Shown: piece after piece, positions 21,631-50,575 of the stretch
Position numbering within the stretch: position 1 is the first letter of the stretch
Layout of the letters: every line of letters starts with the position of its first letter
Source of the DNA: Halobacterium sp. CBA1132
GTDB lineage: Archaea > Halobacteriota > Halobacteria > Halobacteriales > Halobacteriaceae
Direction: 5' to 3'
Length of the DNA: 64,000 nt
Assembly (NCBI RefSeq): GCF_001485535.1
Contig: NZ_BCMZ01000001.1
Span: forward strand, 2,480,001-2,544,000
Translations under genes and position numbers: made by a program
The notes under the pieces: model-generated
What the model was told of the DNA's origin: nothing
The model's input: only the letters and a program-made list of their open reading frames with translations
The model's database searches: none

Positions 21631-22709
21631 CTACGGGGAGGACGCGTGCGTCTCCTCGTCGACCGGCCGGAGTTCCGCGGAGAAGTGCCGGAGTTCCGCC
21701 ATCTCGGGCTCGGAGACGACCTCGTAGCCGGTGACGTCGCTGCCCTTCTCGCAGACCGCGGCGGCCGTGTCCGCGACGTGTTCGAGGTGGTCCGGGCCGT
21801 ACGTGCGTCGCGGCACCGCGAGCCGCACGAGGTCGTCGCGCTCGGTTCCGGGGAACGCGAACCGCCCGAGCTCCACGGCGCGGACGCCGCCCTCGCGGTA
21901 GAGTTCGCAGACGAACGCCTGCCCGGGGTACGCCTCCCGTGGGATGTGCGGGAGCGCGTCGTTGGCGTTGACGTAGACGGCGTGGCCGCCGGCCGGCTGG
22001 TAGACGGGGACGCCGCGGTCGCCGAGGGCCTCGCAGAGCGCCTCGACCTGCGCGACGCGCTCGCCGACGTACGGCGGGTCGACGGCTTCGCGGAGGCCGA
22101 CGGCGAACGCCGCGAGGTCGCGGCCGCTCATCCCGCCGTACGTCGAGAACCCCTCGTAGAGGATGCCGCGCTGGCGGCACGCCTCGAAGAGGTCCCCCTT
22201 CTCCCGGAGGCCGACGAACCCGCCGACGTTCACGAGGCCGTCTTTCTTCCCGCTCATCACGCACGCGTCGGCGTACGAGAGCTGTTCGCGGGCGACGCTG
22301 GCGACGGAGTCGCCGGCGAACTCGTCCTCGCGGCGCGTCACGAAGTGGGCGTTCTCCGCGAACCGACAGGCGTCGACGACGAACGTCGCGTCGATTTCTT
22401 CGGCGAACGCGGCGGCCTCGCGAGTGTTCGCGACGCTGACCGGCTGGCCGGCCATCGAGTTGTTCGTGACAGTGAGCACGATTAGCGGGACGTTCTCCGC
22501 GCCGACGTCGTCGACGACCTCGCGGGCCGTGTCCACGTCGAAGTTCCCCTTGAACGGGTGGTCGCTGTCGCCGTCGCGGGCTTCCGGAACCGGGCAGTCC
22601 ACAGGGTCGCCGCCGTTCGCGGCGATGTGGGCGCGCGTCGTATCGAAGTGCGCGTTGTTCAGCACGACGTCGCCCTCGGAGACGAGCGCGCCGTAGAGGA
22701 CGTTCTCCG
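21631..22709 (-). pseudogene. tnaA: Tryptophanase, C-terminal fragment cut by an IS element
   Basis: This open frame of about 356 residues has no start of its own. It contains the PLP-enzyme core, with SGKKDGLVNVGGFV carrying the Schiff-base lysine region and FVVDACRFAENAHF. Tryptophanase (or a tyrosine phenol-lyase of the same family) splits tryptophan to indole, pyruvate and ammonia. The fragment begins at base 22701, directly after one copy of the 8-bp target duplication. Joining it to the N-terminal piece at 23406-23705 restores an uninterrupted 456-residue frame, so the insertion is the sole lesion I see. Confidence 0.9.
22702..22709. repeat. Target-site duplication of the IS element, left copy
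   Basis: gttctccg at 22702-22709 is identical to 23406-23413. Eight bases is the duplication length of IS6-family elements. Confidence 0.9.
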
Positions 22710-23405
22710 GGTCGTGTTTAGTTAAGGCTGAAAAGTGAGGCGAGAGTGATTTCTGCTGTCTATGGCTGAAACCACTCGCCTCAGTGGCTGTAGCGACTGG
22801 ATCGAGTTAGATTTTGTGGAGCGCGAGCGGACACCGAGCGAGCTGATGCAGCTTGGTATTCGACTTCATTTGGCTGGTCTCTCACTTTCGAATACAGTAA
22901 AAGAACTTGAGAAGTTCGGTGTCCAACGCTCGCGGAAAGCGGTCCATGATTGGGTACAGAAAGCTGATCTACAGCCCGCCAGCGACGCCAGCCCGGATCA
23001 GGTTGCGGTTGACGAAACGGTGATCCGTATCGACGGCCAGCAGTACTGGCTGTACGCTGCCGTCAATCCAGACTCGAACAAATTCCTGCACGTACGGCTG
23101 TTTCCGACGACAACAACGGCGTTGACTGAACGATTTCTGCAGGAATTACGCGAGAAACACGACGTCGAAGATGCCGTGTTTCTAGTTGATCACGCCCAGC
23201 ACCTCAAAACAGCACTCCAGCGAGTCGGGCTCCGATTCCAAACCGTTCGTCATGGGAATCGGAATGCTGTCGAACGTGTTTTTCGAGAGATAAAACGACG
23301 GACTTCCTCGTTCAGTAATAGTTTCAGCCACGTCGAGCCAACAACAGCGGAATCGTGGTTGCAAGCCTTCGCCGTCTGGTGGAACTCGCTAAACTAAACA
23401 CGATG
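22710..23405 (+). mobile_element. IS6-family insertion sequence (696 bp) within tnaA
   Basis: The element is bounded by terminal inverted repeats, ggtcgtgtttagttaag at the left and, read inward, catcgtgtttagtttagc at the right. They share cgtgtttagtt. It is flanked by an 8-bp target duplication and carries one transposase gene. Length, duplication and transposase type all fit the IS6 family, to which small haloarchaeal ISH elements such as ISH14 and ISH15 belong. The element is complete, so it may still be active. Confidence 0.9.
22762..23397 (+). CDS. IS6-family DDE transposase
   Basis: This 211-residue transposase has an N-terminal helix-turn-helix region (about 30-68), then D84 in [13 protein letters not shown]143 in FLVDHAQ and E171 in the N-x-x-E-R motif [13 protein letters not shown], the DDE triad of the IS6 family. 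All three catalytic residues are present. The start ATG is 52 bases inside the element, and the stop is 8 bases from its right end. The codon use is less GC-rich than the interrupted gene. Confidence 0.93.
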
Positions 23406-23705
23406 GTTCTCCGCGCCCCGCCCCTGATGGGCGGGAACGATATGTTCGAAGCCCATGACCTCGCGGACGGCGTCGCGGAGGTCGCGGAAGCTATCGCTGC
23501 CGGCGTAGGCCTCGTCGCCGCCCATCAGGGCGGCCCACTGGCTGGTGCTCATCGTGCCGGTGCCGGAGTCGGTGAGGAGGTCGACGAAGACGTCCGCGCT
23601 GTCGAGATTGAAGACGTTGTAGCCCGCGTCCCGGAGCGCGGCCTCGCGGTCCTCGCGGTCGAGCAGCCGAATCGGTTCGACCATCGCGGCCTTGTACGAG
23701 CGCAT
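23406..23705 (-). pseudogene. tnaA: Tryptophanase, N-terminal fragment
   Basis: Exactly 100 codons run from the ATG at 23703-23705 ([15 protein letters not shown]) to GAEN at the IS boundary, then three codons inside the IS and a stop. The segment has [16 protein letters not shown] and [15 protein letters not shown], which belong to the N-terminal arm and PLP-phosphate region of tryptophanase. A TATA element GTTTATC (23729-23735, minus) is centred 27 bases from the ATG, so this end is probably still transcribed. Without the rest it cannot form an enzyme. Confidence 0.9.
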
Positions 23706-23728
23706 ACCCGAGAGACGCGCGAAATCGC

Positions 23729-23735
23729 GATAAAC
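23729..23735 (-). promoter_or_regulatory. TATA box of disrupted tnaA
   Basis: GTTTATC on the minus strand is centred 27 bases from the tnaA ATG at 23705. Confidence 0.5.
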
Positions 23736-23814
23736 CCGGCGAGCCAGCCGTGTACGGCAGTGTACAGGGATGTACGCTCGCCGCCGTGACTGTGCGAAAA
23801 ACGAAGGGCGCCGG

Positions 23815-24999
23815 TTAGGAACTGAAGCGGCCCTGAACGATTTCCAGCGTCTCCTCGCGGTCGTCCCAGTCGACGAAGACGGCGACCGACGTCGCACTGG
23901 AGATGATGTCGATGACGTTGATGCCCGCGTCCGCGATGGGGTCGACGATGCGCCGGAGGATGCCCGGCTGATTCGGGAGTTCGCCGCCGAGCACGCGGAT
24001 AACGGCGACCTCGTCGCGGACGGTGACCGAGGAGAGTTCGCCGACCTCGATGACCTCGCTGTGGAGGACGTTCTCGGCGCGCTCGGCGAGGTCCTCGTCG
24101 ACGTAGAACGTCATCGAGTCCATGCCGGACGCGACCGCGTCGACGTTGATATCCGAGTCGTCGAGCGCGGTCGACAGCGTCGACATGATGCCGGGGCGGT
24201 TGCGGATGGCGCGCCCGGCGACGGTGAGACACGCCAGCGGCGAGTCCCGCATGTCGATCATGTTCTCAAACTGGCCCTCGATTTTGGTGCCGCCGGAGAG
24301 CAGGTCGCCGTGCTGGTAGTGGATGACGCGGACGTCGAGTTCGTCGTCCTTGAACGAGAGCGCGGAGGGAGCGACGACTTCCGCGCCGCGGAAGGACAGG
24401 TTCCGGAGTTCGTCGACGGTGATTTCGCCGACGTTGCGTGCGCCCTCGACGACGTGGGGGTCGCCGGTCATGACGCCCTCGACGTCGGTGACGATGACCA
24501 CTTCGTCGGCGTCGGCGTACCGGCCGAGCATCACGGCCGTGGTGTCGCTGCCGCCCCGTCCAAGCGTGGTGACGTTGCCGTCGAGGTCCTCCGCGAGGAA
24601 GCCCGTGATGACGGGGACGACGTCGCCGAGGTCCGCGGCGAGCGCTTCCACGCGCTCGCGGGTCTCCTCGACGTCGACTTCGCCGCGGTCGTTGGCGACG
24701 ACCGGCCAGTCGGGGTGGCCGGGTTCGAGGAACACCGCGTTCACGCCGCGGGCGGCCAACGCCGCCTTCAGCATCCGCACGGACGTGCGCTCGCCCATCG
24801 AGACGATTTCCGCGCGGTCGGCGTCGTCGGCCTCGAACGTGATGTCGTCGAGCAGTTCGTCGGTCGTGTTCCCCATCGCCGACGCGACCACCGCGATTTC
24901 GTGGCCGGCTGCGACGGCGTCAGCGACGGAGTCCGCGGCCCGCTCGATGCGGTCGCCGCTCCCGAGACTGGTGCCGCCGAACTTCGCGACTACGCGCAT
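23815..24999 (-). CDS. lysC: Aspartate kinase
   Basis: This 394-residue protein starts with [10 protein letters not shown], the kinase signature, and continues with [21 protein letters not shown] and [12 protein letters not shown], the ATP/aspartate site. Two ACT domains follow (about residues 265-325 and 335-390, with [10 protein letters not shown] and [20 protein letters not shown]), which usually bind lysine or threonine for feedback control. It makes aspartyl phosphate for lysine, threonine and methionine synthesis. The start is the ATG at 24997-24999. The gene stands alone. Confidence 0.95.
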
Positions 25000-45595: not shown

Positions 45596-45752
45596 CCGAC
45601 TCCATCCTCACTCGTTCTTCGGATCCTATTCTCCGACTCCATCCTCACTCGTTCTTCCGACCCCATCCTCACCCGCCCTTCCGACTCCATCCTCACTCGT
45701 TCTTCCGACCCCATCCTCACCTGCCCTTCCGACCCCATCCTCACCTGCCCTT
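45596..45752 (+). repeat. Tandem 24-nt repeat, six units
   Basis: Units at 45596-45619, 45633-45656, 45657-45680, 45681-45704, 45705-45728 and 45729-45752 begin ccga(c) and contain catcctcac. Two versions alternate, one ending cgttctt and the other cctgccctt or cccgccctt. A 13-nt interruption follows unit 1. The region sits between oapC and the MATE gene, with no gene of its own. Confidence 0.85.
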
Positions 45753-45845
45753 CTGACCCAACCTTTTCGACTCCGTTCTTTCGAACCCACGATAGGTTGC
45801 CGCCTGCCGAAGTTGTTTTCCGCGGCGACGAGACGCTCCGAGTAG

Positions 45846-48252: not shown

Positions 48253-48831
48253 TCAGTAGTCGGCGGCGACGTCGCCGCTCTCGTCGAGTTCGACGACCAC
48301 GTCGCTCTCCGCGCGGAACGCGTCGAGCGTGTCGTCGTCGTGGACCTCCCGGGAGACGTGGACGAGCGCGACGGCGTCGTGTTCGTCCAGCAGGTCGCCG
48401 AGTCGCTGCAGGGCGTCGAGCGCGCGGTCCTCGTCGGCGTAGTACGCCAGTTCCGTCAGGGAGTCGAAGCTTACGCGGCGCTTGCCGGGGTTGTCGGTGA
48501 GGAACTGGTCGACGGCCGCGAGGATGCCGTCGACGTCGTCGGGCGCGGAGACGTAGTGGATGTGGCTGGCGCCGCGGCGCGAGTAGCCGCGGTCGACGGA
48601 GAGCGTGTCCAGAATCTCGGCGCTGTCCTCGTCGACGTCGTAGTACTCCAGTTTCTGCGTGACCTCGCGCGCGGTGGTTCGCGTGGAGACGACGAGGAAG
48701 TTGTCCGTGTCCGTCTTCAGGAAGTCGGTGTCCATGCGGTCGGTCTCGCCGGTGCTGGGGTGGAGCAGCAACACGACGGTACCGCCCGGGACGGAGTCGG
48801 GCGCTCCGTCGATGGCGAGGTCGTAGTCCAT
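48253..48831 (-). CDS. RecA/KaiC-like protein without a clear Walker A
   Basis: This 192-residue protein starts MDYDLAIDGAPDSVPGGTVVLLLHPSTGETDRMDTDFL. The segment HPSTGETDRM occupies the place of a P-loop but lacks the GKT/S ending, so ATP binding is doubtful. Later parts have the RecA-fold order: FLVVSTRTTAREV, KRRVSFDSLTELAYY and AVALVHVSREVHDD. It resembles haloarchaeal KaiC-like or HTR-like regulators with lost ATPase. It converges on the 258-residue gene 17 bases away. Confidence 0.65.
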   Translation of the reverse strand: MDYDLAIDGAPDSVPGGTVVLLLHPSTGETDRMDTDFLKTDTDNFLVVSTRTTAREVTQKLEYYDVDEDSAEILDTLSVDRGYSRRGASHIHYVSAPDDVDGILAAVDQFLTDNPGKRRVSFDSLTELAYYADEDRALDALQRLGDLLDEHDAVALVHVSREVHDDDTLDAFRAESDVVVELDESGDVAADY

Positions 48832-48884
48832 ACCGCAGGAAAGCGTCTACGCGGTCTTAACCTTCGGGGTCGGGGAGAGAAGTG

Positions 48885-49103
48885 GTGTTCAGGTGAGAAA
48901 CATCCAGCAGTAGCGTTGTGGGGAACCGCTGAAAGCCCTCGGCTGTCTCGGCTCCCGCGGCTCGCTGCGCGCGTTCGCTCGCGTTGCTCGCTCTCGTGCT
49001 TGCGTCGCCGGGGTTCGCCGAGACGCCTCGCCCTTTCAATCCACCAGGAGACCGGTTGATTCATCGGCTGATGCTGACTGGGAGTACACTTTCATCCGAA
49101 CAT
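48885..49103. mobile_element. MITE-like element, copy 1 (degenerate ends)
   Basis: A 219-bp element without a gene is similar along its full length to 49624-49843. Its ends are gtgttcaggtgag and ttcatccgaacat, an imperfect inverted repeat (9 of 13). A 20-nt stretch ctcgctgcgcgcgttcgctc lies at the same offset (76 bases from the left end) in both copies. It fills the gap between 48832 and 49134. Confidence 0.75.
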
Positions 49104-49134
49104 CGTGGAGGGAAGGACCAGCGCCGCTGGTGCT

Positions 49135-49572
49135 TCAGAACACGCTGTCGGCGGTCGCGGCGCCGACGACGCTGAAGATGGCGCCCACGCAGACGGCCTT
49201 CGCGGTGAGCGCCGCGATGTCCGGGAGCGCGGTCCCGAGTTCGAGCTGCCCGGCGAACGTCGTGGGCGCGGTGACTGCTATCGCGAGCACGAGCACCGAG
49301 CCGTAGGAGACGCCCATCAGGGAGACGAACCGAATCGGGACGCCGGCGACTTCGGCCTCGCGGTCGGGGTCGCGGTCGTCGTCGGCCTCGTAGAGCGCGC
49401 CGTAGCCGATGGCGAACACGACGACGACGGTCGCGAGCACGTGGAACCACTGCATCCGGCTGGCGAGCAGCCACACCTCCTCGGTGACGACGAACGGCCC
49501 CGCGAGCAGGAAGCCGCCGACGACCTGCTGGGCGGTGTCCGCGACCCGGTAGCGTTTGCTTCGGCCGACCAT
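49135..49572 (-). CDS. DUF2391 membrane protein
   Basis: This 145-residue protein has four hydrophobic segments (about 17-33, 43-60, 82-102, 121-142) and is probably a DUF2391 (TIGR02587) integral membrane protein. Start MVGRSKRYRVADTAQQVVGGF at the ATG 49570-49572. Both its flanks are MITE-like copies (48885-49103, 49624-49843), so its promoter lies in or beside copy 2. The role of the family is unknown. Confidence 0.8.
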   Translation of the reverse strand: MVGRSKRYRVADTAQQVVGGFLLAGPFVVTEEVWLLASRMQWFHVLATVVVVFAIGYGALYEADDDRDPDREAEVAGVPIRFVSLMGVSYGSVLVLAIAVTAPTTFAGQLELGTALPDIAALTAKAVCVGAIFSVVGAATADSVF

Positions 49573-49623
49573 ACCGGCCAGTCGTGGACGCCGGGGAAAA
49601 CGTCTGCGGGTCTCGGAGCGGCA

Positions 49624-49843
49624 GTGTTCAGATAAGCAGCGATAACTGGAGCTGTTGGCGTTGCCTTTTGAAAGCCCTCGGCGTTCTCGACTCCCGCGAC
49701 TCGCTGCGCGCGTTCGCTCCCGCTGGTCGCTCACGTGCTTGCATCGTCGGGGTTCGTCGAGAACGCCTCGCCCTTTCGATCCGCCAGGAAACCGGCTGGA
49801 GCGTCGGCTGGAACTGCGAACGGATGCGTCCTTATCTGAACAC
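49624..49843. mobile_element. MITE-like element, copy 2 with perfect 13-bp terminal inverted repeats
   Basis: gtgttcagataag (49624-49636) and cttatctgaacac (49831-49843) are perfect inverted repeats 220 bp apart. There is no gene inside. It is similar to copy 1, including acgcctcgccctttc near the right part. No target duplication is visible. It fills the gap between 49573 and 49897, so it also lies before the methyltransferase gene. Confidence 0.85.
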
Positions 49844-49897
49844 CACCCTCGGAGCCGTCCCAGCGGGTTTTTGCCCGGGCCGGTCGTCGCGTCCACC

Positions 49898-50575
49898 ATG
49901 AGCGTTCGCGAGGAGTTCGACGAGTGGGCGGCGTCGGGCCGCGACAAGGGAATGGAGGACCGCCACTGGCACACCGCCAAGCACGTGCTCGCGCGGATGC
50001 CCGTCGAGGCCGACGACTACGTGCTCGATTTGGGGACCGGGAGCGGGTACGCGCTGCGCGCGCTCCGCGAGCGGGGCATCGCTCGCGGCTACGGGCTCGA
50101 CGGCGCGCCGGAGATGGCGCGCAACGCCCGGTCGTACACCGACGACGACCGAATCGGCTACGTGGTCGGGGACTTCGGGAGTCTGCCGTTCGCCGACGAC
50201 AGCGTCGACCACGTGTTCTCGATGGAGGCGTTCTACTACGCCAGCGACCCCCACGAGACGCTCGAAGAGATTCGGCGCGTCCTCGCGCCCGGCGGGACGT
50301 TCTACTGCGCGGTGAACTACTACGAGGAGAACGTCCACAGCCACGACTGGCAGCAGAACATCACCGTGGAGATGACGCGCTGGGCCAAGGCCGAGTACCG
50401 CGAGGCGTTCCGGGACGCCGGCCTGCACGTCGCCGAGCAGGACAACGTCGCGGACCGCGACGTGGAAATTCCGACAGCCTCGGAGTTCCCCTACGAGGGC
50501 TTCGAGACGCGCGAGGACATGGTCGAACGCTATCGCACGTACGGGACGCTGCTGACCGTCGGCGTCGCGCCCTGA
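49898..50575 (+). CDS. SAM-dependent methyltransferase (UbiE-like)
   Basis: This 225-residue class I methyltransferase has motif I VLDLGTGSGYALR (about 43-55), motif II-like GYGLDGAPEMARNAR and motif IV FADDSVDHVFSMEAFYYA. The GTGSG loop binds SAM. C-terminal helices probably hold the substrate, which I cannot identify. Start ATG 49898 lies 55 bases after the MITE copy 2 end. It stands alone. Confidence 0.9.
   Translation: MSVREEFDEWAASGRDKGMEDRHWHTAKHVLARMPVEADDYVLDLGTGSGYALRALRERGIARGYGLDGAPEMARNARSYTDDDRIGYVVGDFGSLPFADDSVDHVFSMEAFYYASDPHETLEEIRRVLAPGGTFYCAVNYYEENVHSHDWQQNITVEMTRWAKAEYREAFRDAGLHVAEQDNVADRDVEIPTASEFPYEGFETREDMVERYRTYGTLLTVGVAP

Follow-up and report, generated by a model that had tools for sequence, protein, structure and literature searches.

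The window analysed here is a stretch of 64,000 nucleotides from Halobacterium sp. CBA1132 (contig NZ_BCMZ01000001.1, positions 2,480,001 to 2,544,000), in which three genes and two gene-free repeats make up the locus under study. A DUF7090 gene on the minus strand (48253-48831; PF23365, E = 7e-98) is followed by a DUF2391 membrane-protein gene, also on the minus strand (49135-49572), and by a methyltransferase gene on the plus strand (49898-50575; PF08241, E = 4e-24). The assignment of the middle gene to DUF2391, made in a preliminary description of this DNA, is borne out by a PF09622 match of 30 bits that covers the C-terminal half of the profile only. Two related elements in direct orientation flank this gene, copy 1 on the side of the DUF7090 gene and copy 2 on the side of the methyltransferase gene, and no convincing gene was seen within either, as had been described.

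Copy 2 is an intact IS6-type MITE of 228 bp (49620-49847, plus strand) with the ends GGCAGTGTTCAGATAAG and CTTATCTGAACACCACC. The perfect 13-bp inverted pair GTGTTCAGATAAG previously noted in it is present at 49624-49636 and 49831-49843, but these terminal inverted repeats (TIRs) lie within 17-bp ends, and the element reaches 4 bp beyond the described limits at either end, its outermost 4 bp being GGCA on the left and CACC on the right. It is flanked by an 8-bp target duplication, CTCGGAGC, in which all eight positions are identical between the left (49612-49619) and right (49848-49855) sites, and this arrangement of ends and duplication is common to the family as a whole. The structured core of copy 2, a hairpin module at 49666-49786 (plus strand), scores 128.9 bits (E = 3e-31) with R1, a covariance model that was built from 20 cores of one of two core classes and whose training set includes the cores of both copies. 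Folding of this core as ssDNA gives z = -2.8.

Copy 1 (about 48883-49107, plus strand) is an older family member whose ends have decayed, and its insertion is common to a congener, G005, whose plasmid matches Halobacterium noricense JCM 15102. Its core (48927-49046, plus strand), likewise part of the training set, scores 118.1 bits with R1. The outer 13-mer at 48885-48897 has 2 mismatches and the right end at 49089-49103 is degenerate, while putative decayed target duplications recognised by eye, GAGAGAAG at 48875-48882 and GAGGGAAG at 49108-49115, agree at 7/8 positions if the left tail is assumed to be 2 bp shorter. With ends and duplication so degenerate, the probable origin of copy 1 rests on homology to intact copies. 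The similarity between the two copies was first described as a shared 20-nt stretch; the sharing is genuine but its amount was understated, as 94 nt align at 88% and 48 nt at 83%, with a mean column identity of 82% overall. The copy 1 orthologue of G005 (L073) has small palindromes such as GGGCGGTCGGCTGTGCCGACCGCC and GTGGCGGCTTCGCCGCCAC within its core, and palindromes are also inserted within the cores of some further copies (L014, L003 and L004).

Partner elements with the same ends are present in the genome. A genome-wide search with GTGTTCAGATAAG at up to one mismatch returned 11 matches, compared with 0 for the reversed control, so that these ends cannot be attributed to chance. Ten of the matches form five inverted pairs, belonging to three IS6 elements and two MITEs, and the eleventh is the end of a partial IS6 element. 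The three intact 689-bp IS6-family elements (C1:46575-47263, C1:2153666-2154354 and C2:235007-235695) have perfect GTGTTCAGATAAG ends, a 4-bp outer tail similar to that of the MITE and 8-bp duplications, two of them perfect and one shifted by 1 bp. Two distinct proteins from them match the IS6 transposase family NF033587 of NCBIfam (2e-59 and 5e-55) as well as PF13610, and 15 IS6-like transposase matches were found in the genome as a whole. The MITEs and these insertion sequences have their ends alone in common, their interiors being unrelated. The preliminary description, which suspected MITE-like elements and proposed a search for such inverted pairs, had let its case stand or fall with further copies and a transposon with matching ends; both are clearly present.

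The window also contains an IS6-family element of a sister subgroup (22710-23405, plus strand; ends GTGTTTAGTTAAG, 8-bp duplication GTTCTCCG; NF033587 transpos_IS6, E = 6e-59), which splits a beta-eliminating lyase gene (window 21631-23897, minus strand) into halves that match PF01212 profile positions 80-287 and 1-61. The family name of these elements may change, since Harmer and Hall have argued for separating the archaeal members from the IS6/IS26 family (PMC6807381).

Copies of the MITE extend well beyond this locus. The host genome yields 16 blastn matches to the element; a further full copy, with a 7/8 duplication, is found at C1:1482655-1482939, and the region near C1:1402.8-1403.1 kb contains a decayed copy. 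In G005, 66 matches were obtained, many of full length, and ten of those examined have perfect 8-bp duplications. A scan of GTDB with the left end and GAAAGCCC retrieved 103 stretches; among the matches listed nearly all are haloarchaeal and come from many genera, and a single bacterial match was taken as chance. Hosts include Halorussus, Halomicrobium, Halonotius, Halolamina, Halovenus, Halomicrococcus, Salinarchaeum and Halobellus, together with MAGs. Among 36 elements with two TIRs, read at a fixed 4-bp offset, 16 have perfect duplications and 7 more have 7/8 duplications (23/36), whereas shuffled flanks reach 7/8 or better in 0.6%. The three IS6 elements with identical TIRs in the same genome and the many congener copies with perfect duplications thus identify a real IS6-type MITE family, multicopy, without a transposase gene, with an 8-bp duplication and with an interior unrelated to that of the IS6 elements. 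Double-core versions, measuring 312-395 bp between TIR edges, occur in Halomicrobium katesii, and 4 of 8 checked have perfect duplications; in L115, L136, L152 and L175 of this species two inverted cores lie between ends of IS6 type, with perfect 8-bp duplications outside them. L009, L010, L264, L284 and L285 likewise contain inverted double cores, in these cases without visible IS6 ends. An exact-pattern search gave no match in viral contigs and no phage record matched, which lends no support to viral spread.

This family is either new or possibly already listed. ISfinder includes under the IS6 family a MITE named MITEHarch3, presumably after a haloarchaeal host (PMC6807381), and lists two IS6 MITEs of 227 and 336 bp (PMC7986276), lengths that may be set beside 227-228 bp for the single-core and ~320 bp for the double-core elements described here. 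Judged by name, family and lengths, which are compatible although the papers assign neither length to MITEHarch3 in particular, the present family may be the same as MITEHarch3. MITEHsal2 of Halobacterium salinarum 91-R6 (411-413 bp, 8-bp and in one case 6-bp duplication; PMC10264941) is likewise a Halobacterium MITE with an 8-bp duplication but, compared by description only, is longer. Other transposase-free haloarchaeal repeats are ISH2, which follows ISH8, and the Haloquadratum MITEs, PATEs, which follow IS605-type elements, and SMRs, which lack duplications (PMC3119063, PMC10264941). As here, Haloquadratum MITEs have only their ends in common with the helper transposon (PMC3119063, PMC10264941). 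Unlike ISH2, PATEs and SMRs, the elements described here have IS6-type ends and 8-bp duplications, and the SMR pattern of no target duplication and ends unrelated to any transposon does not apply to them.

Comparison with congeners bears on how the two copies arrived. The DUF7090, DUF2391 and methyltransferase genes occur together in this order in 12/12 congeners searched, and in at least four of them (G002, G009, G010 and G011) neither MITE is present and only ~10-50 bp separate the genes at each site. G005 has the copy 1 insertion and lacks copy 2, and in G004 the copy 2 interval holds an older copy consisting of the core only, apparently inserted on a separate occasion. Since gene order is kept in congeners without MITEs and G005 has copy 1 only, the copies were inserted separately beside a DUF2391 gene that is resident rather than cargo. 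The idea that copy 2 may carry the promoter of this gene is not supported, as the TATA-like boxes lie outside copy 2, between it and the respective start codons, and are seen again in congeners that lack the MITE. The putative box of the DUF2391 gene (49596-49601, minus strand; GTTTTC, about -24 to -29) is also present in several congeners that lack copy 2, and in that of the methyltransferase gene (49867-49873, plus strand; GTTTTTG, -25 to -31) the TTTT is kept in all aligned congeners.

We consider with high confidence that both copies are non-autonomous MITEs with haloarchaeal IS6-family ends, inserted separately and carrying a ~115-bp hairpin module common across Halobacteria. The ends, duplications, partner elements, separate insertions and covariation can be read directly from the DNA, and from them we infer mobilisation in trans by IS6 transposase and a DNA-level role of the hairpin. 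A resident full-length IS6 copy would supply the transposase, which, acting in trans, would bind the ~17-bp ends common to both kinds of element and insert the MITE with an 8-bp target duplication. Two separate insertions took place in short intergenic regions beside the DUF2391 gene, copy 1 before copy 2, and each element brought a module predicted to form a single long hairpin whose internal mismatches and loops are conserved. This module recurs across the class, often without recognisable IS6 ends, and some core copies may have arrived by another route, given that about two thirds of the copies not selected by their ends have no recognisable IS6 end.

The class-wide hairpin core is what lifts this MITE family above the ordinary. 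R1 finds 30 matches in the host genome, 25 of them strong, and in the class Halobacteria it matches at least 245 of 294 species genomes and at least 66 of 78 genera (E <= 1e-6), these counts being minima because no more than 12 candidates were scored per genome. In a sample of the phylum, 38 genomes have matches, all of them haloarchaeal, among ~43 haloarchaea, and no match was obtained in ~204 non-haloarchaeal genomes. No annotated feature underlies most of the plasmid matches, and a literature search found no paper describing the core, the RepRanger archaeal set being without haloarchaea. Integron attC sites, REP/REPIN, ERIC and Correia elements are intergenic imperfect palindromes, and attC sites conserve fold more than sequence; the core resembles them in being palindromic, and attC sites in the way its fold is conserved, with no sequence relation shown.

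The fold is supported by two largely independent alignment sets, A4 and A6, with 90.3% and 91.3% paired cells and changes on both sides in 29/33 and 24/33 pairs, respectively. Covariation scores reach 0.491 versus 0.131 shuffled in A4 and 0.406 versus 0.106 shuffled in A6; both alignments were fitted to R1, which favours the model, but slid controls nevertheless collapse to at most 0.117. At well-paired positions, G-U accounts for ~1% and A-C for ~2% of cells in two sets (22 v 47 and 26 v 48), and a third, A4, gives 77 v 72. Because G-U and A-C are both rare and show no consistent RNA-strand bias, the core looks like a fold at the DNA level rather than in an RNA of either strand. In another species, a core in the copy 2 intergenic interval (L074:2035-2167) has the basal stem GCAAG/CTTGC in place of the usual GAAAG/CTTTC, a compensatory change in an otherwise nearly invariant helix.

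The ends of the element appear to decay sooner than the core. A set of 212 copies was gathered without regard to their ends: in 24 of these both TIRs are recognisable with no more than 2 mismatches, and in 71 at least one TIR survives at the expected place with no more than 4, against control rates of 3.4% and 2.4% per side. For genes on the 5' side of the core, the median distance is 92 bp when the start codon faces it and 59 bp when the stop codon does, which is consistent with a ~50-bp arm retained even in old copies; the ~90-bp spacing between core and gene is accounted for by such an arm plus ~40 bp of retained promoter. An early bias in orientation, with 44 of 61 left genes divergent, was non-significant in a larger sample (tandem context 31 v 20, p = 0.16), and targeting of promoters or of an orientation was rejected.

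In the best old orthologous pairs with homologous genes on both sides, chosen from 30 after the values were seen, core identity is 0.89-0.98 and arm identity 0.66-0.85: 0.97 v 0.66 in L240/L275, 0.94 v 0.73 in L261/L263, 0.98 v 0.85 in L348/L350, 0.97 v 0.83 in L257/L258, 0.93 v 0.83 in L059/L060, 0.91 v 0.72 in L069/L351, 0.89 v 0.72 in L210/L352 and 0.89 v 0.67 in L129/L365. As the same method gives 0.72 for unrelated arms and 0.80 for unrelated cores, several arms are saturated and core pairs below about 0.88 are uninformative; some pairs at one and the same locus probably stem from independent insertions. Taken together, these values give moderate support to slower evolution of the core than of the remaining element, through selection or a conversion process. 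We tentatively propose, at somewhat below even confidence, that the core is a class-wide DNA-hairpin module that is spread at least partly by IS6 transposases and kept by the host after the ends decay, its cruciform or ssDNA structure being recognised by a conserved haloarchaeal protein.

It is also possible, if on balance doubtful, that mobility or function resides primarily in the ~115-bp core itself, which would then be a haloarchaeal palindromic repeat in its own right that has taken up IS6 ends as a vehicle on more than one occasion. Such an origin would fit the presence of the core in at least 66/78 genera, the recognisable IS6 ends seen for only 4 of the 25 strong matches in the host genome, the 141/212 copies without an end remnant at the threshold used, and the inverted double cores, some within IS6 ends and perfect duplications and some without IS6 ends seen. 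It is harder to reconcile with the remnants that 71/212 copies keep at the expected place, where roughly 6% would be expected, and with the ~50-bp left-arm spacing retained in old copies, and for no core without IS6 ends has a duplication or an empty site been demonstrated.

A purely mutational process, in which template switching between the hairpin arms keeps them complementary without selection, is unlikely. The complementarity is near perfect and roughly strand-symmetric, as arm correction would give, but a C-rich internal mismatch loop and the loop sequences are unpaired and yet conserved across genera, and the core is more conserved than the arms in several orthologous pairs. We regard as quite improbable a structured RNA, either a small RNA or an untranslated leader, made from these intergenic regions: the strong covariation (29/33 pairs and 0.49 versus 0.13 in A4; 24/33 and 0.41 versus 0.11 in A6) and the conserved loops would suit one, but G-U lies far below the wobble use expected on the given strand, the other strand being only weakly compatible, the tandem-context orientation is without significant bias, and the core has no match in Rfam at the gathering threshold. 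The earlier proposal of a 0.96-kb composite able to move the membrane gene, taken here as an IS6 pseudo-compound unit of both copies and DUF2391 that brought the gene to this site, can practically be discarded, for although one gene does lie between direct-orientation copies, as in IS6 pseudo-compound transposons (PMC7986276), the gene did not arrive with such a unit, its order with both neighbours being unchanged in congeners, at least four of them without either copy, while G005 has copy 1 only, copy 2 owns a perfect duplication, the right end of copy 1 is degenerate, and the sequences on the two outer sides of the pair differ, with no target duplication in common.

As IS6-type MITEs are barely documented, with two entries in ISfinder (PMC7986276), the family of separately inserted MITEs described here ties a known transposase family to a widespread, fold-conserved intergenic haloarchaeal element that has no Rfam match. 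Should selection maintain the core, most of an archaeal class would share a domesticated module of DNA structure, testable in tractable haloarchaea. Elsewhere in the window, a tandem array of a 24-bp unit (~5 copies) occupies 45632-45764, directly downstream of an acidic-protein gene.
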